Assembly (NCBI GenBank): GCA_025359945.1
Contig: JANYDD010000081.1
Span: forward strand, 1-60,665
Reading direction: 5' to 3'
Source of the DNA: Bdellovibrio sp.
GTDB taxonomy: Bacteria; Bdellovibrionota; Bdellovibrionia; Bdellovibrionales; Bdellovibrionaceae
DNA length: 60,665 nucleotides
Under the pieces are notes generated by a model. The model was given only the letters and a program-made list of their open reading frames with translations. It did no database searches and had not been told where the DNA came from. Shown here in pieces: positions 2,730 through 28,271 of the stretch (position 1 is its first letter; each line of letters opens with the position of its first letter). A program made the position numbers and the translations under genes.

Positions 2730-4811
2730 TTAGAGAAGATGTGCTGGGTCAACATCGGGACTGACTCGCACCGAGGCAGGGATCCAGTTTTGGTCTCCCA
2801 TCAGGTGCAAATAAAATTTTTGCAGTCGATGTGGCATCGTACTTTTAAGAAGAATTTGAAATCGAAATTGATTTCGAATTTTACTAATCGGTGCTTCCGA
2901 TGGACCCAAAATTTCGATGCCCGCGTACTGGCTTTGGTATTGGGGGTTTGCCAGAAGGGCCTTAGCTCTTGTCGCAAAAGCTTCGGCCGTATTTTCGACA
3001 GAATCTTTCTTTAGACTTTGAAAGCGAACGCTTAAAAGTCTTCCGAAAGGTGGGTAATAAAGCTCTTTTCGATTTTCTAACTCGCTATTAATAAAACCTT
3101 CGATATCGTTTTTCACCAAATACAAAAGGCTAGGGTGATCCACATTATATGTTTGAAGAAAAACTCGACCTGGGTCCTGGTCTAGTCCCACGTGTCGGCC
3201 GGACCGGCCCGCCATCTGAGTGAAAAGTTGAAAACTTCTTTCCGTCGATCGAAAGTCTGGAATCTGAAAACTTAAATCTGCCAAGACCAAGCCCACTAGA
3301 TTTAATTTTTTAAAATCTAGCCCTTTTGCGATCATCTGTGTGCCCACCAAAATATCGATTTCGTGATTTTCCATTTTTTGGATAAGATCTTCAAGCTCGT
3401 GTCGATTTTGAACTTCATCGCGATCGGCGCGGGCTACTCGGGCTTGGGGAAAGTATTTTCTAAGGTCACTTTCGATTTGTTCTGTACCAAACCCGACGGA
3501 TTTTATTTCGCCCTCGTGGCAATCGGGGCAGACTTCGTCTTTGGTGTGGGTGTACTCGCAGTAGTGGCAAACCAGATGATTTTTTCCGTGCAATGTCAGC
3601 TTAATGTCGCAATTGGGGCAGTCGTAAGTATAACCGCAGGCCGGGCACAGCACCAGGGGCGAGTACCCTCGGCGATTTAAAAACAAAGCTGATTGTTGAC
3701 CCTTGCCCAAAGTGACTTGCAAGGCTTCGAAAAGTTTTTCACTTAGCCAAAGGGGCCGGTTTTTTTGTAAGTTCGGGGTTTTCAGTTTTCCTTCAGAGAT
3801 CTTGGAGACGTCTTCTTTCATATCAATAATTTCGATGGTGGGTAAAGGGCTATTGCCGAATCTATTCTTAAGGCGATGCAGGTGGTAGCGCCCCTCTTGC
3901 GCGTTTTTCCAGCTTTCAAGACTGGGGGTGGCCGATCCTAAAATAATCGGGCATCCACTCAATCGGGCTAACATCACGGCACTGTCTCGCGCTTGGTATT
4001 TTAATTTTTCATCTTGTTTGAAATTTAGCTCGTGCTCCTCGTCAATCACGATCAGGCCCAAGTCGGGTAAAGGACAAAACAAGGCTGACCTGGCGCCAAT
4101 TAAAATTTGTTTTTTCTTTTCGGTCATTTCCCACCAGTGGATGGTGCGTTCGCGATCGGTAAGCTGGGAATGGATCACGGCGATCTGATTGGGAAAGCGT
4201 AAATTAAACCGATCGACCAATTGCGGGGTCAGAGAAATTTCAGGGACAATAAAAAGTCCCTGTTTTTTCTGCTGCAGAATTTTCTCAAAAAGTTCCAAAT
4301 ACACTTCGGTCTTTCCAGATCCAGTAACGCCAAAAATCAAGTGCGTGGAAAAACATTCTAAGCTTTTTGAAATATCGGCGACGATCTGATCCTGCTCTTC
4401 GTTTAAAGATTTTTTTTGAGGCTCGTCATGACTTTGCAAAATAAAGGAATTTGTTTTTCTGCCCTTTTTTTTCAAGGGGGGGAAAAAAAGCGTCGAAACC
4501 TGCCCCACCGGATGCATATAATATTTAGATAGCCACTCAAGCCACTGCAAATAATTTTCCGGGATTGGAAAAAGATCTTCGGACTTGCCGATGACATTTT
4601 TTAACACAAATTTTCTTGAGCTTTCATCGGCGTTGGGCGTGATCTTTTCCAAAAGCAGGCCACGCACCTGGCGTTTTCCTAAGGGGACCACGACCGATTG
4701 TCCGCGTTGCAAAAACAAATCGGGTGAAGCCTGATAGGTCAAAGCTTCTCGCAGAGGAGCTTCTACTGACACTCGCCAGATTTCTGTTTCTGGTTTTAAA
4801 AGTTCAATCAT
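2730..4811 (-). CDS. priA: Primosomal protein N' (replication restart helicase PriA)
   Basis: PriA is the 3'-to-5' DNA helicase that reloads the replisome at stalled forks. The 693 residues include the N-terminal DNA-binding domain, a helicase core with Walker A GVTGSGKT (161-168) and a DEEH box, and the paired zinc-binding cysteines unique to PriA (CPAC, CPNC, CHYC, CPDC). Motifs of the second helicase lobe follow (VGTQMIAKGLDF, QMAGRSGR). The length is slightly below the E. coli protein (732), with no domain missing. It overlaps the upstream exported-protein gene by 4 nt (ATGA), implying translational coupling, and is followed by the CFI-box gene after 12 bp. Confidence 0.97.
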   Translation of the reverse strand: MIELLKPETEIWRVSVEAPLREALTYQASPDLFLQRGQSVVVPLGKRQVRGLLLEKITPNADESSRKFVLKNVIGKSEDLFPIPENYLQWLEWLSKYYMHPVGQVSTLFFPPLKKKGRKTNSFILQSHDEPQKKSLNEEQDQIVADISKSLECFSTHLIFGVTGSGKTEVYLELFEKILQQKKQGLFIVPEISLTPQLVDRFNLRFPNQIAVIHSQLTDRERTIHWWEMTEKKKQILIGARSALFCPLPDLGLIVIDEEHELNFKQDEKLKYQARDSAVMLARLSGCPIILGSATPSLESWKNAQEGRYHLHRLKNRFGNSPLPTIEIIDMKEDVSKISEGKLKTPNLQKNRPLWLSEKLFEALQVTLGKGQQSALFLNRRGYSPLVLCPACGYTYDCPNCDIKLTLHGKNHLVCHYCEYTHTKDEVCPDCHEGEIKSVGFGTEQIESDLRKYFPQARVARADRDEVQNRHELEDLIQKMENHEIDILVGTQMIAKGLDFKKLNLVGLVLADLSFQIPDFRSTERSFQLFTQMAGRSGRHVGLDQDPGRVFLQTYNVDHPSLLYLVKNDIEGFINSELENRKELYYPPFGRLLSVRFQSLKKDSVENTAEAFATRAKALLANPQYQSQYAGIEILGPSEAPISKIRNQFRFQILLKSTMPHRLQKFYLHLMGDQNWIPASVRVSPDVDPAHLL

Positions 4812-5629
4812 CTAAATCTCGAATAAAACTCTTCGATGGTAGATTGCAGGGGTAAACCTTCAAAGCTTGCGGAACTTGAATTTTCTAAGCTTGTGCTAGA
4901 AAAGAAATTTTGAACTTTTTCGCCTCTCCACGACACACTTTGCACCGAGGCACTGACGGGAAAGTTACTGCCCATCAATTTCATGATTTTTTGCTTAGGG
5001 TGGATTAAACCTTTGGCGAAAGGAGTGACTTCGCTGGCCAAAACTTCCGCGCCGTCTTGAAATCGGATTTTTCGAATCACGAATTGATCCTGTTCGACCC
5101 ACAGACCAGAGGCGCCGCCCACGGGACCAAAAACGTAACTGACTACGCCTGAATGTCTGGCCAAGCGAAGCAGGGGGTCAGGCGTTGGGTCAAAATCTTT
5201 AATGTTTTTGGCAATTTTTTTCTGCAAGTAAGTAGAATTTAGAATACCCATCTGTGAAAGTTGAAAAGCTAAGTTTTCAGACTTTCGAAAATGAAAAAAC
5301 TTTTCTGAAAAATCCGCGCCAGTGGGTACCACTTTGCGGCTTCCGGATAAATTAATTAATTTATTTTTTCCTTGGTAAAGGTAGGTGATTTTTATTTTAT
5401 CTTTAAATTCTTTCAAGCCCAGAATTTGCAGTTTCAAAGTATTTTCGTTTTCGACCCACCAAATTTCTTTCAAGGTCACGCGATCTTTTTCGTTTTGAAA
5501 AAGGACCTCTTGTTCGATGCGATAAATTCCGAGTCCTGAATTATCGGTCAATTTATTAAGGATGGTGGTCCCCTTGGGGATTGCGGCGAATACTGGAAAG
5601 CTTGCAAACAACAATAATATAAATCGCAT
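4808..5629 (-). CDS. Hypothetical exported protein upstream of priA
   Basis: This protein of about 273 residues is not recognised. It begins with a short signal peptide (MRFILLLFASFPVFA) and has a beta-rich mature part with alternating hydrophobic residues, suggesting a periplasmic or outer-membrane-associated protein. Segments such as LWVEQDQFVIRKIRFQDGAEV resemble proteins of the LolA/LolB-like outer-membrane lipoprotein-sorting fold, but the match is only impressionistic. It ends overlapping priA by 4 nt. I chose the ATG at 5629. Upstream GTG (5644) and TTG (5656) codons are in frame, and the GTG would give an n-region QIKRMR that is also credible. Confidence 0.65.
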   Translation of the reverse strand: MRFILLLFASFPVFAAIPKGTTILNKLTDNSGLGIYRIEQEVLFQNEKDRVTLKEIWWVENENTLKLQILGLKEFKDKIKITYLYQGKNKLINLSGSRKVVPTGADFSEKFFHFRKSENLAFQLSQMGILNSTYLQKKIAKNIKDFDPTPDPLLRLARHSGVVSYVFGPVGGASGLWVEQDQFVIRKIRFQDGAEVLASEVTPFAKGLIHPKQKIMKLMGSNFPVSASVQSVSWRGEKVQNFFSSTSLENSSSASFEGLPLQSTIEEFYSRFR

Positions 5630-6020
5630 TCTTTTAATCTGCACCAAACACCCCAAGAAAGCCTACGAAAAAATTTCTGGGATGGTGGTTCTATAAAAGC
5701 ATTTTCTTAATGTTTGGAAAATGTAACGCAAATTCGAAGTACTTTCCGGTCAGCCCTTTTTCCAGAAATTCACCCTTCACCACCGTCTGCAATACGTAGA
5801 CATGGTTCTCGTTTTATATGTAAAAATGAGAACATGATAACCAGATTGCAGCGGCAGCAAATTGCGTCTTCCAAGAAAAGCGCCCTTGTGGGTTTCATTT
5901 GCGGACAGCCGCCACGGAGTTGTCTCATCTTGAGGCGAATTTGCCCTTTAAATTCAAAAAAATTCGTGTTTCTTCCGAGCGATGATATTCTTAAAGGGTG
6001 CCTTGTTTTGGGGGGATTGT
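5630..6020. other. Divergent intergenic region, 391 bp
   Basis: This region separates the leftward priA-linked gene from the rightward lipoprotein gene and should hold both promoters. I see no convincing protein in it. It holds an imperfect inverted repeat at 5805-5833 and a very G-rich Shine-Dalgarno (GGGGGG) just before the lipoprotein start. An open frame crosses from 5714 to 6127 but has no supporting features. Confidence 0.5.
5805..5833. repeat. Imperfect 29-bp inverted repeat, possible operator
   Basis: GTTCTC at 5805-5810 is mirrored by GAGAAC at 5828-5833, with TTTT and AAAA symmetrically inside and an AT-rich centre. The arms match perfectly over 6 bp plus 4 inner bases. It lies 188 bp upstream of the lipoprotein start, in the divergent intergenic region. 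A dimeric regulator could bind here, but the site matches no named box that I can assign with confidence. Confidence 0.4.
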
Positions 6021-7505
6021 ATGTCATTTTCAAAGATCAAATCTTTGAACTTAAAACCTATAGCGATTTTATTCTCAGGCGCTCTAGTTATGGTGAGCTT
6101 TCAAAACTGTGGCCAAGCGGGATTTGAAAACTCTAGTCTTTCTTCGCAAGAATCTGCTAGCAACCAGGCTTACGCTCAGGCTCCTCACCCCTTAGATGTT
6201 CGATTCAATCAAATTGCGTATATGTCATGTCCTCGCGCAGGAACAGCGGATGCCGGATCTGGTGGCGCCGTCGGAGTCACAGCACAGGGCGGATCTGGTG
6301 CCGCAAAAACGGTCCCTAGCGGAGATTTAAATGACTATCCTTATTTTACTCTTCGAGCGGCCGGTTTCGATAATAGCGATTTATTAAATTCGCCAGTAGC
6401 ACCTGGTGGAGTAGGTTTTAGCCCGGAGGGTCTTGAATTTGTGAGAAACACTTTGTCGCCGGCCGCGACACCGCAAAGCTTGGCTTATTTTTTGAAAAAT
6501 TCGCCTTTCACAAAAAATAAATCCATTGTGTCAACGATCCTATTAAAAAATAGAACTCCTCAAGCTTTAACTCCGCCCGAATCAAAATCATTTCCGATTC
6601 TAGAACCGCTGAGCGCGCCTGCCGTTTCCTCGATGCTGACCAACGCTCCCGCGGTTGAAAAAAAGGGTACACAGAAAGTGAGCTTTTTTTCGCAGTCACC
6701 CACTTTGGGCTTACAGAATTTTGCGGTTAGTATGAATTTCATGGGCGATGCCGTTAAAAATATTCGCACCAACTTCACCGACGCGAACAAAAAAGCCTAT
6801 TTATTTTTAGGCTATGCCGATGCCACTTCGACAACATCTGCAGCTTCCATTGTTAACAGCCTGTCGGGACCCGACAATGACCCCGTGAAAAGGCTTTACG
6901 GAAAAGGCTACGAGCTTACTTTTTCGCAAAATAAAACCGGATTTAATTCAGTTATGGACGTTCAAGAAGTGGATCTTAGCAAAACCGACGAACCCGTGAA
7001 TGTTTCGCAGACCGAGGGGCAAGCCTGGGAATGTTTGCCACCGTTGACTGTAGTGCGACCAGTGGATCGAATTTATAAACTTAAAAATGATAGTTTTGTT
7101 CGCAAGACTGATATCAACGCAGAACCAAGCCGGCCCTATTTCATAAAAAATGGATTTCAATTAAGAAAGCTCGAGGCCGCGCAATTTTTCGGTCAGAAAA
7201 ATCCGCTTCGAATGGGAATTCAAAAAGTGTGCCCTCCGCAAGAGGCCAACGATTTAGATTCCATCGAGATGCGCGACAAATGGCGTATTGTGCGACGAAT
7301 GTTACCCGCGGATCTATTTGATCTGAATTTAAAGGAAAACTGTGTGGTTCCAACAGAAAAAGCATTGGCATCGGGCCAAACTTGTTATGCCTCGGGAGAC
7401 GCGGACACCGGAAAATACATCGTTTATGATTCTTCTTTTGAATGCGGACCCAGTCCCCAAGACGAATGTTCCGCGTTTGTCTCTGTCTGCTATCGAAAAA
7501 AATAA
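6021..7505 (+). CDS. Large lipoprotein with SFQNCG lipobox
   Basis: The 494-residue product starts MSFSKIKSLNLKPIAILF and has a hydrophobic stretch ending VSFQNCGQAG. The Cys is the expected lipidation site, so this is a predicted lipoprotein. The SFQNC/FQNCG lipobox recurs in Bdellovibrio-type lipoproteins. The mature part is low-complexity at first (GSGGAVGVTAQGG) and then globular, with cysteines clustered at the C-terminus (CYASGD, CGPSPQDEC, SVCYRK). No catalytic motif is recognised. The ATG at 6021 follows a run of six G after a suitable spacing, which decides the start over an upstream ATG at 5982. Function unknown. Confidence 0.8.
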   Translation: MSFSKIKSLNLKPIAILFSGALVMVSFQNCGQAGFENSSLSSQESASNQAYAQAPHPLDVRFNQIAYMSCPRAGTADAGSGGAVGVTAQGGSGAAKTVPSGDLNDYPYFTLRAAGFDNSDLLNSPVAPGGVGFSPEGLEFVRNTLSPAATPQSLAYFLKNSPFTKNKSIVSTILLKNRTPQALTPPESKSFPILEPLSAPAVSSMLTNAPAVEKKGTQKVSFFSQSPTLGLQNFAVSMNFMGDAVKNIRTNFTDANKKAYLFLGYADATSTTSAASIVNSLSGPDNDPVKRLYGKGYELTFSQNKTGFNSVMDVQEVDLSKTDEPVNVSQTEGQAWECLPPLTVVRPVDRIYKLKNDSFVRKTDINAEPSRPYFIKNGFQLRKLEAAQFFGQKNPLRMGIQKVCPPQEANDLDSIEMRDKWRIVRRMLPADLFDLNLKENCVVPTEKALASGQTCYASGDADTGKYIVYDSSFECGPSPQDECSAFVSVCYRKK

Positions 7506-18919: not shown

Positions 18920-19024
18920 AGTCCCCTTTGATAACATTTGTCTCCCTTATCAAGATGTATTGTTATATATATATTTTCGTATTTAGACTTTATCAATTCC
19001 TCGAAAGGCCCTGCTTTAAGATTT

Positions 19025-19843
19025 ATGTCAGAATTTTCAGAGAATTCGTTTCGTATCGGTGGTGGATACTTTGGCGTTATTGCAGGACCTTGTTCTATCG
19101 AGAGCGAACAGCAGTTTTTAAAAACTGCACTGTCAGTAAAGGCATCTGGTGCTGGGCTACTTCGTGGCGGCATTTGGAAAATGCGAACAAGCCCTGACAG
19201 TTTCCAAGGCTTGGGCGGGCAAGCGATCTCGTTAGTAAAAAATGTTTTAAACCAATCCAAGATCGGTTTGGTTTGCGAAATCACAGACCCAAGGCAAATT
19301 CCCTTACTGGATGACTTCGTTGCCATGTATCAAGTCGGCGCCAGAAATATGTACAATTATTCTTTACTCAAAGAGTTGGGGCAAACCCGAAAGCCGGTTT
19401 TGTTAAAAAGATCATTTGCCGCTTTGCTTTCCGAGTGGCTGAAGGCTGCTGACTATATCGAAAAAGGTGGAAACAAAAATATTATTTTGTGCGAGCGGGG
19501 GATCAGAACCTTTGAAACCTCGTCAAGGTACACATTTGATTTGAATTCGGTCCTTTTGGCCAAAGCGGAAAGCCGCTTTCCGGTGATTGTTGATCCGTCT
19601 CACGCGATCGGTTTAAGCGAGCACGTGCCGGCCTTAGCTCGCGCTGCTGCAGCGGCGGGAGCCGACGGAATGATTATCGAAGTCCATCCTGATCCTGCGA
19701 AGGCACTTTCGGACGGTCGCCAGTCTTTGAACTTGTTGCAGTTTGCGGACCTAATGAAAGACTTGGAAAAAATTCTGGCCGTTGTGAATAAAAAAATTCA
19801 CCGCCCAATGCCTAATTCTGTTTCTGCACCTTTAAATCTGTGA
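19025..19843 (+). CDS. DAHP synthase, type I-beta (first step of the shikimate pathway)
   Basis: It condenses phosphoenolpyruvate and erythrose-4-phosphate to DAHP. The 272 residues match the short KDO8P-synthase-like class: GPCSIESEQQF, RGGIWKMRTSPDSFQGLG, KPVLLKRSFAA, CERGIRTFE, DPSHAIGL and VHPDPAKALSDGRQSL. There is no extra ferredoxin-like, ACT or chorismate mutase domain, so simple feedback inhibition through such a domain is not expected. Compared with the usual AFKPRTSPYSF, the segment reads IWKMRTSPDSF. The start at ATG 19025 puts the first conserved block at the usual distance. The gene is divergent from menF and is followed after 10 bp by ubiE/menG, linking chorismate supply with menaquinone. 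Confidence 0.92.
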   Translation: MSEFSENSFRIGGGYFGVIAGPCSIESEQQFLKTALSVKASGAGLLRGGIWKMRTSPDSFQGLGGQAISLVKNVLNQSKIGLVCEITDPRQIPLLDDFVAMYQVGARNMYNYSLLKELGQTRKPVLLKRSFAALLSEWLKAADYIEKGGNKNIILCERGIRTFETSSRYTFDLNSVLLAKAESRFPVIVDPSHAIGLSEHVPALARAAAAAGADGMIIEVHPDPAKALSDGRQSLNLLQFADLMKDLEKILAVVNKKIHRPMPNSVSAPLNL

Positions 19844-19853
19844 AAGAAAATTT

Positions 19854-20564
19854 ATGAACGCCAAAAGTTCCCAACCGCTGACGATTCAAAATATGTTCTC
19901 GAAAATTGCGCCCCGATATGATCTAGCCAATTCGGTTTTATCATTGGGGATTCATCATTTGTGGAAAGAAAAGTTGGTCAAAGTTTCTGCTGCAAAAGCT
20001 GGGGAATCTGTTCTTGATTGCGCCACGGGCACCGGCGATTTGGCGATTCGGTTTAAGAGAAAAGTGGGGCGAACTGGGAAGGTGATGGGTATCGATTTTT
20101 GTTCAGAAATGGTGGCGCTTGCGCCGGCCAAAGCTACTGCCGAAAATTTGGATGTACAGTTCCAACGGGCCGATGTGTTGCGCTTGCCTTTTAGTGATAA
20201 AAGTTTTGATATTGTTTCCATCTCATTCGGCATAAGGAACGTCGCAGACCCACTGAAAGGCCTTAACGAAATGGCCCGAGTGTTAAAACCTGGCGGTCGT
20301 CTGGTGATTTTAGAATTTGGGCAAATTCAAAATCCGGTCTTGGGAAAGTTGTATCAATTTTATGCGCAAAAAGTTTTGCCCGTTTTAGGTGGCATTTTGA
20401 CGGGGCAAAAAAAGGCTTATGAATATCTTGAGAATTCGTCAGCACAGTTTCCTTGCCGAGAAAATTTTTTGAATTTAATGAATGAAACTAAGTCATTTTC
20501 GAAAACTTCGTATCGGTCACTTTCCGGCGGAGTGGCTTATATTTATGAAGCGATTAAAATCTAA
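19854..20564 (+). CDS. ubiE: Demethylmenaquinone (ubiquinone) C-methyltransferase
   Basis: UbiE/MenG methylates demethylmenaquinone with S-adenosylmethionine, the last step of menaquinone synthesis. The 236 residues show the family N-terminus MFSKIAPRYDLANSVLSLG, SAM motif I VLDCATGTGDLAIRF, motif DVLRLPFSDKSFDIVSISFG with RNVADP, and the family segment RVLKPGGRLVILEF. The C-terminus SFSKTSYRSLSGGVAYIYEA fits the family signature. It follows the DAHP synthase by 10 bp in the same transcript and overlaps the convergent outer-membrane gene by 11 bp. With only menaquinone genes nearby, MenG activity is the more likely one. Confidence 0.95.
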   Translation: MNAKSSQPLTIQNMFSKIAPRYDLANSVLSLGIHHLWKEKLVKVSAAKAGESVLDCATGTGDLAIRFKRKVGRTGKVMGIDFCSEMVALAPAKATAENLDVQFQRADVLRLPFSDKSFDIVSISFGIRNVADPLKGLNEMARVLKPGGRLVILEFGQIQNPVLGKLYQFYAQKVLPVLGGILTGQKKAYEYLENSSAQFPCRENFLNLMNETKSFSKTSYRSLSGGVAYIYEAIKI

Positions 20565-22173
20565 ATCCGACTCCAAATTCCGCAGCTAGGGCCGCGTGGG
20601 TGACTTTGCTTAAAGCGGTTTGCACTCCTGCTGTACTTTCAGATCTCTCAAACTGATAGTTATGACCGTAAAAAGCTAAAATCATATTAATTTTAGGGGA
20701 GTAATAGATGTACCCCTTCAAAGAAAGAATCAGCGCCTGAGCTTTTGCCACATCTTGGATTGTAGTGAACGGTAAGTACTCTAAATTAATTTCTAAAGTT
20801 TTTGGTTTTCGCAAAAAAGGAATTAAATTGATTATCCTTTGCAGGGGTGACCAAAGATCATCAGTGTAGGCAACCCCTATTCCATAAAAAGCGCCGGTCG
20901 GACCAGATGTTTTAATTTGTTTGTAGACGATTCCTGGCACAATACTTTGCCCGTATTTGGCGTTAGACCAACGATATCGGTATTGCAAAAGAACCCCGAT
21001 AAGTTGCGCGTAGTTGTTGTAAGAGGCTCCTAAGTTATCTACGTATTGTGCCCGGATTCCATATTTTCCAAACCACTGGCGCGCCGTTAAATCCACTGAA
21101 TTTGTAATCGACGAAGAGGCAAATCCGGCGCTGTAAAGAATATCAAGTTCGGATCGAAATCGGTCCTTCGAGAGGTCTTGGATATTTTCAATATCCATAT
21201 CAATCATCTGTGCCATCACTTCATCTTGTTTTTGAATTTGCACCAGCACTGAAACTTGGGATTCGTTTGAAAAATCCGCCTGAGGACGATTTCTGACCAA
21301 ACCAAATTGCGTCAATACGTCAATCAGTTCAAAAATCTTGGCCGCCGGAACTTTAAACGAAAAGCCAGTGTGAGTGTCAGAATCAACAATCGTGAGTTGA
21401 GGCTCAATTTTTCTTAATTCGTTTTCTACATCTTCAGTTTCAGAAGAAAACAAATAAGCTGGCACTAGGTCCAATATCAAATCAGCCTTGACAGTTTTTT
21501 TATCGGTACTGCCCACCGAATCCGAGGGATTAATTTCCAAGACCGAAACTACTAAGGGCACTTGGTTTGTATTGCCTTGGGATTTCTTCGAATCTTCGGC
21601 AAGAATTACGGACTCTTTTAAATTGGGCAAATTTAAGAGCTGTGAAAAATTATCTTGCGGCACTTGACCCGACAACGAACTTTTCCAGCCTTGAGATTTC
21701 TCGAACGGAAATTTGAACTCGCTCAATTTAGTTTTTAGGTCTTTGACCACCTGATTGGGCTCGCTGGAAGCTTGAAAGATTCTCATGCGGCCGTCGGGCG
21801 CAGGCAGGCCGCGATCCTGAAAAAACCAGATCACGATTTGGACTTTTCCCTTTTCAACCGATTTAACGGTTGGTCGTTTCTCGACAAAAATATCGCCTTG
21901 TTCGCTAAGATCTGTAAAAAGATCAAGGACAAGTTCTTGATCCAATTTAAAATAAAAGTATCGACTTCCTAAAAAAAGGCCATCGTAACGGACGGGTCCT
22001 AAATCTTCGGCGGCCCATGCATCCAGCTGGCTTTGCACGAATTCGGCATTTTTATCCTGGGAGTAATAGGCCACGTGATAAACTTGATCTTGCTGGGCAA
22101 AAGCAAAGGGAGAAATCAAAAATAAAGCAATCAGCGGAATAAGTCCGCCGATTATTTTTCGAAAAGCTGTCAT
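20554..22173 (-). CDS. Hypothetical exported protein with C-terminal beta-barrel-like region
   Basis: The 539-residue protein starts with a signal peptide (KIIGGLIPLIALFLISPFAFA, then QQDQ). The first 300 residues look like soluble periplasmic domains with repeated beta-alpha units (IVIWFFQDRG..., SFKVPAAKIFELIDVLTQF). The second half, from about 330, has alternating-pattern strands and ends in GVGFRF with a terminal Phe, the classic outer-membrane barrel end. I infer an outer-membrane protein with a periplasmic N-terminal part. It is downstream of aroC on the same strand (gap about 55 bp) but unrelated in function. No family recognised. Confidence 0.72.
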   Translation of the reverse strand: MTAFRKIIGGLIPLIALFLISPFAFAQQDQVYHVAYYSQDKNAEFVQSQLDAWAAEDLGPVRYDGLFLGSRYFYFKLDQELVLDLFTDLSEQGDIFVEKRPTVKSVEKGKVQIVIWFFQDRGLPAPDGRMRIFQASSEPNQVVKDLKTKLSEFKFPFEKSQGWKSSLSGQVPQDNFSQLLNLPNLKESVILAEDSKKSQGNTNQVPLVVSVLEINPSDSVGSTDKKTVKADLILDLVPAYLFSSETEDVENELRKIEPQLTIVDSDTHTGFSFKVPAAKIFELIDVLTQFGLVRNRPQADFSNESQVSVLVQIQKQDEVMAQMIDMDIENIQDLSKDRFRSELDILYSAGFASSSITNSVDLTARQWFGKYGIRAQYVDNLGASYNNYAQLIGVLLQYRYRWSNAKYGQSIVPGIVYKQIKTSGPTGAFYGIGVAYTDDLWSPLQRIINLIPFLRKPKTLEINLEYLPFTTIQDVAKAQALILSLKGYIYYSPKINMILAFYGHNYQFERSESTAGVQTALSKVTHAALAAEFGVGFRF

Positions 22174-22228: not shown

Positions 22229-23254
22229 TTAGATCCTATCCAATCGAGACCACAAAATGTGATCACATAAAGTTAACCAGATCATCGACTGCAGCACGGG
22301 GATAACTCGGGGAAGTAAACAGGGGTCGTGTCTACCTTTTTTTGAAACATCTAAAATTGAAGAAGTCGGCTTAATCCCAACCTCTAAAAAAATATCTTGG
22401 CCATTGCTGATGCCTCCGTTCACTCCACCGTAAACAAAGTTTTGTTGATTGTGAAAAGCCGATCCTGTTTGGGCTAAATCGAGGTCCCGCCCCAATTCAT
22501 AGCTGACCACAGAACCCACGCTGACTAGGGCTTTTGCGAAATCACTTTTTAATTTTCGAAACACGGGCTGACCTAAACCTGCTGGTGCACCTTGAATCAA
22601 AAGTCCGACATTGCCGCCCCAGCTTTCGCCATTTTCTTGGGCTGCCATCAGCATTTTTTTAATTTCAGATTCTCTTTCGCCAGGAAAGTAGCAGGACCGT
22701 TCAAAAAGATCCTTAGGATTTGTGAAGAATTTTTCCGCTTCTGATTTCGTCAGCGAAAAGGGACCAACTGCAGAGCTAAAGGCGTACACCTTAAGTTTTG
22801 GGAACAAAGTTTTTACGACCATCTCGGCAACACTTCCACCGATTACTCGGCCAACGGTTTCGCGACCCGAAGCCCGACCCCCTCCGCGGTAGTCAACATG
22901 TGCAAACTTTTCTCTCCACGCTTGATCGGCATGTCCTTTGCGGGGATTTTCTTTGATTTCATCATAGTCCTTCGATCGAGCGTCGGTATTGCGCACAAGA
23001 ATAGTTATCGGTGTACCCAATGTTTTGTCTTCAAAAACGCCACTCAAAATTTCTGGCGTATCCATTTCTTGTCGGGCTGAAACAATTTGTTTCCCTGCAG
23101 CGCCTGGTCGCCGGCGGATTAAATTTTTTTGTAAGATTTCTTGATCGAAAATAACTCCGGCCGGGCATCCTTGGATAAGGGCGCCAACAGCTGGTCCATG
23201 GCTTTCTCCAAAAGTAGTTAATTTAAAAATCTCGCCAAATTCGTTGCCGCTCAT
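22229..23254 (-). CDS. aroC: Chorismate synthase
   Basis: AroC converts EPSP to chorismate with reduced FMN, the last shikimate-pathway step. The 341 residues carry the signatures GESHGPAVGALIQGCPAG (12-29), RRPGAAGKQIVSARQE, DYRGGGRASGRETVGRVIGG and, near the C-terminus, GRHDPCLLPRVIPVLQSM. The length is near the usual 350-390, slightly short at the C-terminus. It starts 6 bp after the aroK/D/E fusion gene, so it is the final pathway gene of the aroB-aroA-aroKDE-aroC operon, in reaction order for the last steps. Confidence 0.96.
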   Translation of the reverse strand: MSGNEFGEIFKLTTFGESHGPAVGALIQGCPAGVIFDQEILQKNLIRRRPGAAGKQIVSARQEMDTPEILSGVFEDKTLGTPITILVRNTDARSKDYDEIKENPRKGHADQAWREKFAHVDYRGGGRASGRETVGRVIGGSVAEMVVKTLFPKLKVYAFSSAVGPFSLTKSEAEKFFTNPKDLFERSCYFPGERESEIKKMLMAAQENGESWGGNVGLLIQGAPAGLGQPVFRKLKSDFAKALVSVGSVVSYELGRDLDLAQTGSAFHNQQNFVYGGVNGGISNGQDIFLEVGIKPTSSILDVSKKGRHDPCLLPRVIPVLQSMIWLTLCDHILWSRLDRI

Positions 23255-23260
23255 AAAAAG

Positions 23261-25018
23261 TTAAACCTCTTGTTCTTTCCAAAAAACTTGTTGACCTTCT
23301 GCTTGCTCGATAAACATTCTATATCCTGAAACATATTTAGCTCCCACCAATAAAGCGTATTCGCGCGCCCTAGAGTGTTGAACGTAGTTCAAATCAAAAA
23401 CCTGCTTTGGTTTCCATTCTACCGGTGGCAACTCAGAAGTTGGTGACCCCGCCCAAATTAAAACGCTTGGACAGACATCAATGGTCAATTCAGCAATGCT
23501 GGCATCGCGGGCGGACTTAAAAATCGCGTCCGGCAAAATTTCTTTAATAGTGCTTAGAACTCCCCCGCCCCCCCAAACCACGACACTTGTTAAATCTATA
23601 TTTTGGCTTTGGAGGGATTCTGCAAGGCCAACGATGTCTGTGTTTTCAGCTTGATTGCGGGTTTCACAAATAAAAAGACTATTGGCAGACTCTAATTTTT
23701 TAACCCTCAAAGAATGTGAATTTGAAAACTGATAGGCGCAATTTTTTAACGGAGACGTCACCGCGGCCCATTTTAGACCTAACTTTTTAAAAAGCCTGAT
23801 TCCTTGGTCCCAATCTTCCTTTTGCAACTGAACTCTAAAAAAGGGAGATTTTCGCGCGCGAAAAAAACTTTCATGCTCCACGGGCGAAAAGCTATGAACG
23901 ACAGGATTTCCCAAGACTGCCGCCCAATTCTTTGTGTCGTAGGGGGTGGCCAACCATTCGAACAAAGTGGGCTGATCCAGTACGCCTGAGAATCCGTCGT
24001 TGATAAAATTTATTTTCTGTCGCCCTTTTAAATACCGGCGCAACCAATTCCACCTACCGTCGTTCGAACGCGGAAGAAAACTTCTCTGCAAATGGTCTTG
24101 TGCTTGCCAATCGATCATTTTTTCAGCTACTTCCCACGACACTTCTGCAGGAGAAAGTTTCAGATGCCGATGAGGCTGGGCTTCTAAAAACTCCGAAGAT
24201 ATTTCGTTTTGGTGGGTCGACAAAACGTGGGGATGGTCGAACGAAGAATTTCCCAACACTAAATCCCAATCTACTTTCAATTTTTCAAATTTTAAAAAAT
24301 GCAACAGCTCGTGAGAAATATTTGCTTTTCTGATCGAGAACAAAATTTTGGAATGAGGAATCTTTTTGGCCAACCCAAATATTTGCGATTCACTTAAAAG
24401 ATCATTACGAAGCTCGAACAGATCGTATCCCCATCTTAAACCACGAATTTCAAAACTGGCCCAATGAGCAAGATGACTTTGAGTCAAAGTTAAGCAACCG
24501 CCCAGACTTCGGATTTGATTTTGAAGAATTCGCCGCTCAATCTCGTGGGGCGCCTGCAGACCTTCTGGGACTTGATAGACCCAAGACGCCCATTGCCTAA
24601 ACTGGGGATCTCGCTGCGAAAATTTTACCGCGTATTCCGCTTGCGGTGATAGGTTTTTTAGAAGTCTAGGTCGGTCCAAAAAAATTCTGGGTTCGCTGTC
24701 CAACGCCCTTCGAATCCAAACCACCTCGAGGTCCTTGACTAGTTCAATAGCGTTTAAATCAAACCCAGCTCCAAGTGCTATCACAAAATCCGAGTGCTGA
24801 TTAAAAATTTCAGAGAAATATTTTTTTTCCAAATTTCGAAAGCTTTGCTCGCCTTGCCTATCGAAAATATTTTGGATTTTTCGACCTTCTCGGTTCTCGA
24901 TCTCTTGATCCAAATCAAAAAAACGAGTCTTTTGTTTTTCCATAGCGGCGTAAACACTCCAGCGCTTAAGCACGGAAGACTTTCCACAGCCACGATGACC
25001 TATAAGAACAATTTTCAT
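23261..25018 (-). CDS. Trifunctional fusion: shikimate kinase, type I 3-dehydroquinase, shikimate dehydrogenase
   Basis: One 585-residue polypeptide carries three shikimate-pathway enzymes. Residues 1-165 are shikimate kinase: P-loop GHRGCGKSS (7-15), FDLDQEIENREG, GEQSFRNLE and the adenine/lid RPRL. Residues 185-355 are a diverged type I dehydroquinase: ELRNDLL (202-208), H269 in LSTHQNE, Schiff-base Lys K287 in HLKLSP, an Arg segment LRRYLKG and the Q349 loop. Residues 366-585 are shikimate dehydrogenase: AAVLGNPVVHSFSP, VTSPLK with K425, NTDIVGL with D461, nucleotide loop VWGGGGV and SGYRMFIEQAEGQ. It overlaps aroA by 4 nt (ATGA). The SK-DHQ-SDH order matches the C-terminal half of eukaryotic AROM. 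The dehydroquinase domain is the weakest of the three. Confidence 0.92.
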   Translation of the reverse strand: MKIVLIGHRGCGKSSVLKRWSVYAAMEKQKTRFFDLDQEIENREGRKIQNIFDRQGEQSFRNLEKKYFSEIFNQHSDFVIALGAGFDLNAIELVKDLEVVWIRRALDSEPRIFLDRPRLLKNLSPQAEYAVKFSQRDPQFRQWASWVYQVPEGLQAPHEIERRILQNQIRSLGGCLTLTQSHLAHWASFEIRGLRWGYDLFELRNDLLSESQIFGLAKKIPHSKILFSIRKANISHELLHFLKFEKLKVDWDLVLGNSSFDHPHVLSTHQNEISSEFLEAQPHRHLKLSPAEVSWEVAEKMIDWQAQDHLQRSFLPRSNDGRWNWLRRYLKGRQKINFINDGFSGVLDQPTLFEWLATPYDTKNWAAVLGNPVVHSFSPVEHESFFRARKSPFFRVQLQKEDWDQGIRLFKKLGLKWAAVTSPLKNCAYQFSNSHSLRVKKLESANSLFICETRNQAENTDIVGLAESLQSQNIDLTSVVVWGGGGVLSTIKEILPDAIFKSARDASIAELTIDVCPSVLIWAGSPTSELPPVEWKPKQVFDLNYVQHSRAREYALLVGAKYVSGYRMFIEQAEGQQVFWKEQEV

Positions 25019-26217
25019 AAAAAATTATCCGGGAATGCCTTCCAGAAATCAGGAATACTTTTTCTCACCGCCGACGAATTCTGTATTTTAATTTCGGGAT
25101 TTTTAATTTTAAACAAAGCTGCCGCAAAGACCATGCGGTGATCGTCAAAGGGGTCAAACGTAAAGCTTCTAGGCTTAAAACCAATCCCTTGCCCAAAAAT
25201 TTTTAAAAAGTTTTTTTCTAATTCAAAAGAAACGCCCGCTTCTTTTAACAATTTTATGGTGCGCTCTAGCCGGTCGGACTCTTTAAATTGAATGTGATGA
25301 AACCCGGTCAGTAGGCTAGTGCCCTGGGCAAAAGAAAGCATTCCACACATCACCGGAAACAAATCTGGAGTATTTTTGAAATCAAAATCAAAGGAATTAA
25401 TTTTTTTTGCTTTCGAAACCTTTAAAACTTCTAAGCGATTTTCGCATAAAATTCCCATGCGGTTAAATAATTCTAGAAACACATGATCAGGTTGAAGTCC
25501 TGTGTCCAAAAAGGGATTCAAGACAAGGTCTCCGCCCACAGCTGCGCAAGCCGCAAATGTAAATGCCGAGCTCATATCGGTTTCACATTTAGCGAGCACC
25601 ATTGAGCCTTCGCCCAAATGTCTGTCAAAATCCGGCGGAATAAAAATTCCCGAATCAATGGTTTCCATTCGCGCGCCCCATTGCTTTAAACAGCGAATGG
25701 TCATCTGCAGGTATTCGTTTGAAACTCCGGCTCCCGGTGGGTCTAAACGGATGGTTAGACCATTGTTTCTTAGCTGTGGCCAATCCAGGCAGTTTAAAAG
25801 AAACGCACTGGCAAATTGACTAGAAATTTCATTTGAAATTCGAAGCTCTTTTTCGGGCTTTATCCATCCATTTGATTTGATTTTTAATTCGCGCTTTCCC
25901 CAATCTGTTTGAACACCCAAGTCATTTAAAATCGCCGTTAGGGTTTGATGAGGTCTTGAAAAAAGATTATCTTCGCCTTGAATAATAAATTCACCGACCT
26001 GGCGAGATAGTCGCAGCGCCAAAAAGCGAAAGGGTGCCGCGCCAAAAGAAATTTTTTGAACGGGTTTTTTAATATCTTCCAAAGCGTTTTTAAGATCCAA
26101 AACGTCTTGGGATTCGGTGTTAAATAGTAGCTGGTGCTTTGGAAAAAAAGAGCTGACGATCAAACTGCGTAAGACAATCGATTTCGAAGAATGAAGTGGT
26201 CCTGAATAACTAAACAC
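25015..26217 (-). CDS. aroA: 3-phosphoshikimate 1-carboxyvinyltransferase (EPSP synthase)
   Basis: EPSP synthase transfers the enolpyruvyl group of PEP to shikimate 3-phosphate. The 400 residues show the family blocks: SGPLHSSKSIVLRSL near the N-terminus (substrate-binding Lys), QGEDNLFSRP, ISSQFASAFLL, KCETDMSSAFTFAACAA, KESDRLERTIKLLKEAG and FDDHRMVFAAAL. It is slightly shorter than the usual 420-450 residues. It overlaps aroB upstream by 8 nt and the aroK/D/E fusion downstream by 4 nt, so ribosomes probably pass from one frame to the next. Sequence alone does not settle the glyphosate-sensitivity class. Confidence 0.96.
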   Translation of the reverse strand: MFSYSGPLHSSKSIVLRSLIVSSFFPKHQLLFNTESQDVLDLKNALEDIKKPVQKISFGAAPFRFLALRLSRQVGEFIIQGEDNLFSRPHQTLTAILNDLGVQTDWGKRELKIKSNGWIKPEKELRISNEISSQFASAFLLNCLDWPQLRNNGLTIRLDPPGAGVSNEYLQMTIRCLKQWGARMETIDSGIFIPPDFDRHLGEGSMVLAKCETDMSSAFTFAACAAVGGDLVLNPFLDTGLQPDHVFLELFNRMGILCENRLEVLKVSKAKKINSFDFDFKNTPDLFPVMCGMLSFAQGTSLLTGFHHIQFKESDRLERTIKLLKEAGVSFELEKNFLKIFGQGIGFKPRSFTFDPFDDHRMVFAAALFKIKNPEIKIQNSSAVRKSIPDFWKAFPDNFL

Positions 26218-27220
26218 AAGCTTGCCTTTTCCATTCGTTCTTGAACATTTGGATGGAAATTTTTTCTCTAACGACTTTGCCGGGTTTTAGAATAAAGGTC
26301 TCTTCAATTTTGTGTGGGCTCACTAATTTTTTGTCCTGAAGCAGTTCGAAATGGGGGTTTGAAACTAAATTTAAAAAAGTTCGTTTTTGATGAAAGGCTT
26401 GGGACATCTGGGGTGCCGCTAATATTAAAATTTTGATTTTTTCATATTCGATTTGAGACAAATATTTTTTCTTAAGACTCCAATCCAGCGCAAACAAGAC
26501 TCCGAAAAAAACCGCTTTGCCGTGGGGCAAGCTCAAACGAGACTCCAAAACATGACCCACAGAATGGCCTAAATTCAAAACTCTTCGAAGTCCTTTTTTT
26601 TCGAAAGGATCTTTGGCGACGATTCGCATTTTAGCGCTGACCAGGTCAGGTAGGACTAACCAAAAATTTTGATCTATTTTTTTCCAAAGCGATCCCCCGG
26701 AAATTAAACCCATTTTCAAGACTTCACCCCAGGCTTCTTGAATATTTGAGGACGGCAGCTGATCAATCACTTCGGCCACAATAAAAACATGTTTGGCAGG
26801 GTAGAAAGTTCCCAACTGATTTTTAATATCCAAAAAATTAAGGGCAGTCTTTCCGCCGTGGCTGGAATCCATTGCCGCCAAAGCCGTGCTAGGAATGTGC
26901 ACTAAGCCTACGCCGCGTTTGTAGATGCTAGCTAAAAAGCCAACAAAGTCTCCGACACTGCCGCCACCAAATGACAAAAAAGTAATCTCGGCACAAGGCA
27001 GTCCGCCGGTGGCCTTTAATGCCAAAGGTAAAACATCCCGAATACTTTCAAGACTTTTTAATTTTTCCCCAGATTTCAATGCTATTTTATTTGGAAACGT
27101 CTTCAAAAACTTTGGATATTTTTTTTCAAAAATCGAATCGTAGAATAAAAATGAGCCCTTCGTTATGGGAATTTTTTCTAGCCGCTTTAAAAAGATAACT
27201 TCAGTTTCTAGAGTCTCCAA
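26210..27220 (-). CDS. aroB: 3-dehydroquinate synthase
   Basis: AroB converts DAHP to 3-dehydroquinate with NAD and a metal ion. The 336-residue product has the NAD/substrate blocks FGGGSVGDFVGFLASIYKRG, IPSTALAAMDSSHGGKTALN, and the metal ligands in EVLKMGLI (Glu), LNLGHSVGH (His) and LPHGKAVFFG (His). I set the start at TTG 27220. It has a strong Shine-Dalgarno (GGAGG, 7-8 nt upstream) and overlaps the ung stop by 13 nt, whereas the longer frame up to 27457 lies inside ung and has no AroB-like sequence. It heads the aroB-aroA-aroKDE-aroC run. Confidence 0.94.
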   Translation of the reverse strand: METLETEVIFLKRLEKIPITKGSFLFYDSIFEKKYPKFLKTFPNKIALKSGEKLKSLESIRDVLPLALKATGGLPCAEITFLSFGGGSVGDFVGFLASIYKRGVGLVHIPSTALAAMDSSHGGKTALNFLDIKNQLGTFYPAKHVFIVAEVIDQLPSSNIQEAWGEVLKMGLISGGSLWKKIDQNFWLVLPDLVSAKMRIVAKDPFEKKGLRRVLNLGHSVGHVLESRLSLPHGKAVFFGVLFALDWSLKKKYLSQIEYEKIKILILAAPQMSQAFHQKRTFLNLVSNPHFELLQDKKLVSPHKIEETFILKPGKVVREKISIQMFKNEWKRQACV

Positions 27221-27918
27221 TCGACGGCCTCCAATTTTTTCTGGGTCAAAAAATTGTTGGCTTTTGAAAAGGGTTTTGACCCTAAGAATCCTCGATACGC
27301 AGATAAAGGCGAAGGGTGCACGGACTGCAACACCAAATGTTTTACCGTATCGATCAAATGAATTTTTTTCTGAGCTTGGCTTCCCCAAAGCATAAAAACA
27401 ACATGCTGCTTTTGTTCTGAAATCACTTGGATCACGCGATCGGTCCAAGTTTTCCACCCCTGATTTTGATGCGACCCTGGTTTGCCGGATTCGACGGTCA
27501 AAACACTGTTGAGCAAAAAAACCCCACTTTTAGCCCACTTTTCTAAATACCCAGAACTGGGTCGAATCACTCCGACATCAGTTTCTAATTCTTTAAAAAT
27601 ATTCATCAGCGAGGGTGGTGGTCTTTGGCCAGGAGGAACCGAAAAACTAAGACCATGCGCTTGACCCGGTCCGTGGTAAGGATCTTGACCCAAAATTACA
27701 ACTTTTAATTTTGTCAATGGAGTCAGCCGAAAGGCTTCGAAATAATTTTTTTTCTCTGGAAAAATGACTTTATTTTTTTGATATTCGGCCTTTAAAAAAA
27801 GTTTCAGTTTAATCATATATTCTTTTTGAAATTCAGTTTCCAAAAATGGACTCCAGCTTTGTTCTAGGCCGCTTTTTGACGCAGTTTTGGTCGGTGCGAG
27901 GTCGATTTGTTTTTGCAT
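27208..27918 (-). CDS. ung: Uracil-DNA glycosylase
   Basis: Ung excises uracil from DNA. The product of about 236 residues has the water-activating GQDPYHGPGQAHGLSFSV motif, the uracil-binding LLNSVLTVE segment and the His-containing HPSPLSAYRGF loop. The ATG at 27918 (MQKQIDLAPTK) gives the usual family length; the frame is open 53 codons further upstream but that extension is unlike Ung. It lies immediately upstream of aroB, with a 13-nt overlap, so the repair gene may supply the promoter of the aro operon. Confidence 0.95.
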   Translation of the reverse strand: MQKQIDLAPTKTASKSGLEQSWSPFLETEFQKEYMIKLKLFLKAEYQKNKVIFPEKKNYFEAFRLTPLTKLKVVILGQDPYHGPGQAHGLSFSVPPGQRPPPSLMNIFKELETDVGVIRPSSGYLEKWAKSGVFLLNSVLTVESGKPGSHQNQGWKTWTDRVIQVISEQKQHVVFMLWGSQAQKKIHLIDTVKHLVLQSVHPSPLSAYRGFLGSKPFSKANNFLTQKKLEAVDWRL

Positions 27919-28271
27919 AAATCTTTGATTACCACTCGCGCGGGGGCTTTTAACAGCAAAAATTATTTCAATTGGTTTCGTATGTAAGTCTTGAAGGAGT
28001 TTTGAAAATATCTGGGTGGGGGTAAAAACACTGTGCCAAACTCTAAGGACAAGGTGTCGTTCCCGTGTCGTTCGCACAAATACTTTTTCAATACCCTCCC
28101 AATATTAAACGGCTCAAAGTGTGCCGTCTCGACTTTAGATAAGTCTCAAAATGAGAAATCTAATTTTTAAATCGAACTCATTGGCTTTTATTGAAAAACG
28201 ACAAACTAGACCAGCCTTGACCTGAAAAAAGTGAGCTCTATTGATATAATTAATAATGGAAGGAGCACTTT
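27919..28271. other. Divergent intergenic region, about 350 bp
   Basis: It separates ung/aro (leftward) from the 132-residue gene (rightward). I see an 11-bp-spaced duplication of GTGTCGTTC (28054-28062 and 28065-28073), a small inverted repeat ACGGC/GCCGT (28109-28113 and 28123-28127), and a promoter at its right end. Part of the left side stays open in the ung frame, but nothing supports an N-terminal extension. Confidence 0.4.
28222..28250 (+). promoter_or_regulatory. Extended -10 promoter of the 132-aa gene
   Basis: A perfect TATAAT (28245-28250) is preceded by TGA to give an extended -10 (TGATATAAT). The -35 is poor: CTGAAA at 28222-28227 with 17-bp spacing; a better TTGACC at 28217 is 22 bp away, too far. 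The start codon at 28272 has an excellent GGAAGGAG Shine-Dalgarno, so the leader would be only about 15 nt. Confidence 0.55.

Follow-up and report, generated by a model that had tools for sequence, protein, structure and literature searches.

The window, that is, the whole 60,665-nucleotide stretch analysed, carries an aro operon that encodes a conserved bacterial multienzyme in the order of the eukaryotic AROM protein, with an overlooked, predicted dehydroquinase, and that is most likely independent of AROM. The transcription order on the minus strand is ung-aroB-aroA-(aroK-aroD-aroE)-aroC (Table 1), where ung and aroB overlap by 13 nt, aroB and aroA by 8 nt, and aroA and the trifunctional aroKDE by 4 nt, while a gap of 6 nt separates aroKDE from aroC. 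In AROM, the domains run DHQS-EPSPS-SK-DHQD-SDH (PMC6851490). An earlier note on this DNA had read the genes as aroB, aroA, a K/D/E fusion and aroC; gene calls and Pfam matches confirmed this order, its coordinates and its 8- and 4-nt overlaps were exact, and the match with AROM that it had pointed out holds as gene order plus fusion.

AroB, AroA, the shikimate kinase, the shikimate dehydrogenase and AroC all scored above the Pfam cut-offs. The TTG start of aroB is preceded by a GGAGG ribosome-binding site, and in AroA the SKS motif and residues D292, E320, R323, R368 and K393 (alignment A3 numbering) were invariant among 23 sequences. Near the operon, the other strand carries genes for a DAHP synthase, which catalyses the first pathway step, and for a ubiE/menG methyltransferase; since DAHP synthase is so near, every step to chorismate is found within ~8 kb. 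The gene directly after aroC encodes a 539-aa protein that matches no Pfam family and, judged by eye, has a signal-like N-terminus; it may be an outer-membrane protein.

Table 1. Coordinates of the aro operon, the domains of AroKDE and neighbouring genes in the window
Feature	Position	Strand	Details
DAHP synthase	18938-19843	+	
ubiE/menG methyltransferase	19854-20564	+	
539-aa protein	20554-22173	-	
aroC, chorismate synthase	22229-23254	-	341 aa; PF01264 306.6 bits
aroKDE, trifunctional protein	23261-25018	-	585 aa, ATG start; one uninterrupted reading frame
Shikimate dehydrogenase domain of AroKDE, residues 366-585	23264-23923	-	PF08501 38.1 bits (cut-off 27)
Putative cryptic type I dehydroquinase domain of AroKDE, residues 171-361	23936-24508	-	invariant residues, structure matches
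Shikimate kinase domain of AroKDE, residues 1-165	24524-25018	-	PF01202 69.9 bits (cut-off 22.1)
aroA, EPSP synthase	25015-26217	-	400 aa, GTG start; PF00275 117.5 bits, TIGR01356 178 bits
aroB, 3-dehydroquinate synthase	26210-27220	-	336 aa; PF01761 97.1 bits, PF24621 69.3 bits, TIGR01357 192.6 bits
ung	27208-28077	-	gene upstream of aroB

That shikimate kinase, type I dehydroquinase and shikimate dehydrogenase form one polypeptide, as had been proposed, was borne out by the 585-aa frame, in which all catalytic residues are kept. Invariant in 21 homologues were the Walker A motif, D37, R61, R116 and R136 of the kinase domain, shikimate-binding residues included, and K425, N446, D461 and Q572 of the dehydrogenase domain, where K425 and D461 are the catalytic Lys/Asp pair. 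Against the bacterial model TIGR00507 the dehydrogenase domain reached 79.5 bits, below the cut-off of 200.2, and it is not of the AROM type (TIGR01809, 41.7 bits against a curated cut-off of 196). The kinase of AroKDE is the only shikimate kinase in this genome. A PDB search with the sequence of the fusion alone returned weak and mixed matches.

The dehydroquinase domain had no Pfam match, PF01487 included, in any of the 21 sequences searched (AroKDE and 20 homologues). Residues E202, R204, D206, R230, H269 and K287 of this domain were invariant among 21 sequences, and H269 and K287 align with H143 and K170, the catalytic dyad of E. coli AroD, in a weak profile alignment to known dehydroquinases (probability 25%, E 8e-4). 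The AlphaFold model of AroKDE (mean pLDDT 91.5, pTM 0.90) had as its best PDB matches the SK-DHQase-SDH part of AROM (6HQV, E 2.5e-22) and the Arabidopsis DHQ-SDH (2GPT), with the whole stretch covered. As modelled, the dehydroquinase domain is a TIM barrel of the family fold, since the prediction matches both AROM and Arabidopsis DHQ-SDH across it. From the invariant residues, the profile alignment and these structure matches, we infer that the middle domain of AroKDE is a type I dehydroquinase with the corresponding predicted activity. Such a cryptic enzyme would close what looks like a gap in the pathway of Bdellovibrio-like predators and Bradymonadia.

A full-length collinear K-D-E fusion was detected in about 128 of the 141 genomes of the order, Bdellovibrionales to judge by record titles, and the matching named genomes are labelled Bdellovibrionales, Pseudobdellovibrionaceae or Bdellovibrio, with complete genomes among them. 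The gene-order survey in related genomes that the earlier note had called for showed aroB-aroA-aroKDE contiguous in that order in 51 of 60 fetched loci, with aroC next in most, and named records repeat the order; the layout is therefore no peculiarity of a single assembly. An assembly artefact behind the K-D-E fusion itself was ruled out by its recurrence in >100 genomes, complete single-contig ones included. Within the order, the family f8 members L238, L239 and L240 have no fusion; their separate genes run aroA-aroE-aroC-aroK-aroB, and a type II dehydroquinase is encoded nearby.

Two lineages of the order extend the fusion to AroA-K-D-E, in frames of 978-1138 aa where aroA is in frame with the kinase across a linker of 7-9 residues. 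They are genus g2 (G001 and G020) and family f10 (G076, G081, G085, G093 and G095), to which G101, also of family f10, adds an AroA-K-D-E frame cut by the contig end. On the concatenated tree of the order, the A-K fusion requires at least two changes. A 998-aa frame in G135 was considered as an extra fusion and rejected, as it is really a split aroA beside a normal KDE. In L075 and L142 (G119, RBG_16_40_8) a frame change interrupts the kinase and the K-D-E frame continues in frame into aroC, which could be either an assembly error or a K-D-E-C fusion. No pentafunctional bacterial protein was found, as no frame longer than ~1150 aa with these domains occurred in the searched genomes of the order and of Bradymonadia.

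Outside the order, G332 (L252) has an AroA-K-D-E frame of 1149 aa with aroB upstream; the rest of its family has ordinary or AroKB-length kinases. This tetrafusion may have come in by horizontal transfer, or its contig may be mis-binned. In other parts of the phylum, shikimate kinase stands alone or belongs to AroKB-length frames (about 470-500 aa). An unrelated genome of the phylum, G214 (L253), encodes AroA-SK and DHQ-SDH fusions, and hence another independent A-K junction. A complete aro operon of the Bdellovibrionales type (35% identity) is also present in L113, a contig titled Planctomycetota, by mis-binning or transfer. In the deltaproteobacterial L167 (G151; positions 3676-6489), whose phylum has two genomes in the collection, aroB-aroA-aroK stand in AROM order and the contig ends before any aroD; its AroB (98%, together with L253) and its shikimate kinase (86%) branch next to AROM.

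Full-length K-D-E relatives were identified in Lujinxingia vulgaris, which we take to be a member of Bradymonadia (Myxococcota), and in genomes related to it. When compared with hhalign, the Bdellovibrionales and Bradymonadia K-D-E profiles were collinear over 562 columns (probability 100%, E 1e-61), and therefore the fusion is homologous in the two phyla, whether by descent or by transfer. Bradymonadia also have an AroB-AroA fusion protein of about 750-780 aa, and in three of their genomes (G393, G460 and G518) AroBA, AroKDE and AroC are adjacent in that order. In a Myxococcaceae locus, the neighbouring genes are K, D-E, C, B and A, with the D-E protein read by eye. Since K-D-E, AroA-K-D-E and AroB-AroA were all found, each junction of AROM exists as a bacterial fusion. 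All five domains together were found in none of the genomes searched, the maximum being the four of the relatives.

We hold it to be very probable that this aro operon serves steps 2-7, that its module is common with Bradymonadia and partly with Myxococcaceae, and that it resembles AROM in order and has a separate origin. In the proposed pathway, AroB would produce dehydroquinate, on which AroKDE would carry out dehydration (through a type I Schiff-base dehydroquinase), reduction (shikimate dehydrogenase) and phosphorylation (shikimate kinase), and AroA and then AroC would complete chorismate. The conserved residues and the absence of substitutes suggest that all three domains of AroKDE are catalytic. 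The neighbouring genes probably fused stepwise within the module shared with Bradymonadia and Myxococcaceae, giving D-E, K-D-E, B-A and A-K-D-E.

To relate the operon to AROM, one quick IQ-TREE phylogeny was built per domain (LG+C20, PMSF), in which AROM was sampled by one or two fungal sequences, the Chaetomium one being taken from PDB alignments, and the bacterial references were few. These domain trees, which the earlier note had also named as a check, placed AROM among ordinary enzymes, those of E. coli and plants included, in all five best topologies, with Bdellovibrionales and Bradymonadia together on the other side. AROM AroA grouped with plant and E. coli EPSPS (99% SH-aLRT) and AROM AroB with other bacteria (98%). 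Joining AROM to Bdellovibrionales was rejected by the AU test for aroB (p=3e-5) and aroA (p=9e-5), with p=0.17 for SDH and p=0.49 for SK. Joining it to the whole clan was rejected for aroB (p=0.002) and aroA (p=0.033) and modestly for the five-domain concatenation (p=0.036), with p=0.39 for SDH, 0.52 for SK and 0.50 for DHQase, where the clan under test is the group named by the finding and the model could share long-branch bias. Bdellovibrionales profiles scored higher against bacterial enzymes than against AROM for AroB (214 vs 167 bits), AroA (238 vs 197), SDH (78 vs 51) and SK (61 vs 44). The DHQase-SDH arrangement of the model superposed on that of Arabidopsis with an rmsd of about 5 over about 490 columns, and the AroKDE model on AROM with an rmsd of about 18 over about 720 columns (TM 0.31), such that the predicted arrangement is closer to the plant enzyme than to AROM. 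A shared origin of AROM and this module is therefore not supported, although SK, DHQase and SDH taken alone are compatible with one.

The earlier note had left the choice between an ancestor of AROM and an independent convergence; the convergence is supported, and the ancestor fails where the data decide, namely for AroB, AroA and the concatenation, with SK, DHQase and SDH giving p values of 0.17-0.52. It is thus very unlikely that the operon marks the lineage behind eukaryotic AROM, through transfer of a B-A-K-D-E operon and loss of its stop codons, even though the order is identical, three domains are fused here and four in relatives, the B-A junction occurs in Bradymonadia, and the SK, DHQase and SDH trees are compatible with it. 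Against such a source stand the strong rejection by AroB and AroA and the modest one by the concatenation, the grouping of AROM AroA and AroB with other enzymes, and the SDH score, which is lower on the AROM-type model than on the bacterial one (41.7 vs 79.5 bits). We also regard it as improbable that the middle domain of AroKDE is a dead dehydroquinase relic, with another enzyme doing step 3. This is what Pfam, which missed the domain in every member, might lead one to expect, and Candida albicans Aro1 offers a precedent, its dyad loss going with the presence of a type II enzyme (PMC9074039). However, the His/Lys dyad and the E-R-D motif are kept in 21 Bdellovibrionales and 11 Bradymonadia sequences, and a type II dehydroquinase is absent from this genome and was found in no KDE-bearing genome searched (it occurred in 4 of 100 genomes, all without a proper KDE), a distribution that mirrors the Aro1/type II complementarity in Candida.

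The order match could itself be a coincidence without any shared constraint, and we give this somewhat less than even chances. Five genes can stand in 120 orders, such that one fixed order has a probability of 0.8%, and a single coincidence is unremarkable since many bacterial lineages with aro clusters could supply the match. The Bradymonadia and Bdellovibrionales modules, being homologous, do not count as independent cases, and other orders exist nearby, as in family f8 (A-E-C-K-B) and in the Myxococcaceae genome (K-DE-C-B-A). On the other hand, the A-K fusion appeared again in the unrelated, Bacteriovoracia-like G214 besides its two or more changes in the order, and several groups unrelated to one another have a D-E fusion; such recurrence hints that the choice of fusing neighbours is constrained to some degree. 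Perhaps, and we put this forward tentatively as a somewhat less probable reading, bacteria independently rebuilt AROM almost fully, with junctions B-A, A-K, K-D and D-E made in frame within one clan across two phyla, and the order reflects an assembly constraint. If so, the AROM order would stem from a physical constraint on the assembly of the shikimate metabolon and not from one historical accident. The tri- and tetrafunctional bacterial fusions in AROM order provide natural, testable multienzyme intermediates, and a second evolutionary instance for judging channelling or assembly arguments.

AROM has been called a long-standing enigma, because prokaryotes were assumed to have a separate gene for each step or, at the most, bifunctional fusions (PMC10792529); in the literature searched, which did not cover all journals, we found no tri- or tetrafunctional bacterial shikimate fusion, the prokaryotic exceptions being bifunctional (PMC10792529). 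The operon has its enzyme set and order in common with AROM/Aro1 of fungi and protists (PMC6851490), whose SK-DHQD-SDH part is the top structural match of the AroKDE model, but AROM holds five domains per chain compared with three here and at most four in relatives, the domain sequences branch apart, and the interdomain geometry of the model differs. With the plant (Arabidopsis 2GPT) and bacterial DHQ-SDH fusions AroKDE has in common the D-E order and, in the predicted structure, a similar domain placement, whereas those proteins have no kinase domain, their sequences are distant, and the plant DHQase is caught by ordinary models. The clostridial DHQD-SK fusion (CASP15 target T1180), one of several bifunctional prokaryotic exceptions (PMC10792529), is likewise a prokaryotic shikimate-pathway fusion, but of two domains rather than K-D-E or A-K-D-E. 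Bacterial AroKB (shikimate kinase/DHQ synthase) is also a known aro fusion, and frames of its length also occur elsewhere in the phylum, in families outside the order; it differs in its K-B order, without D or E, which is not the order of AROM.
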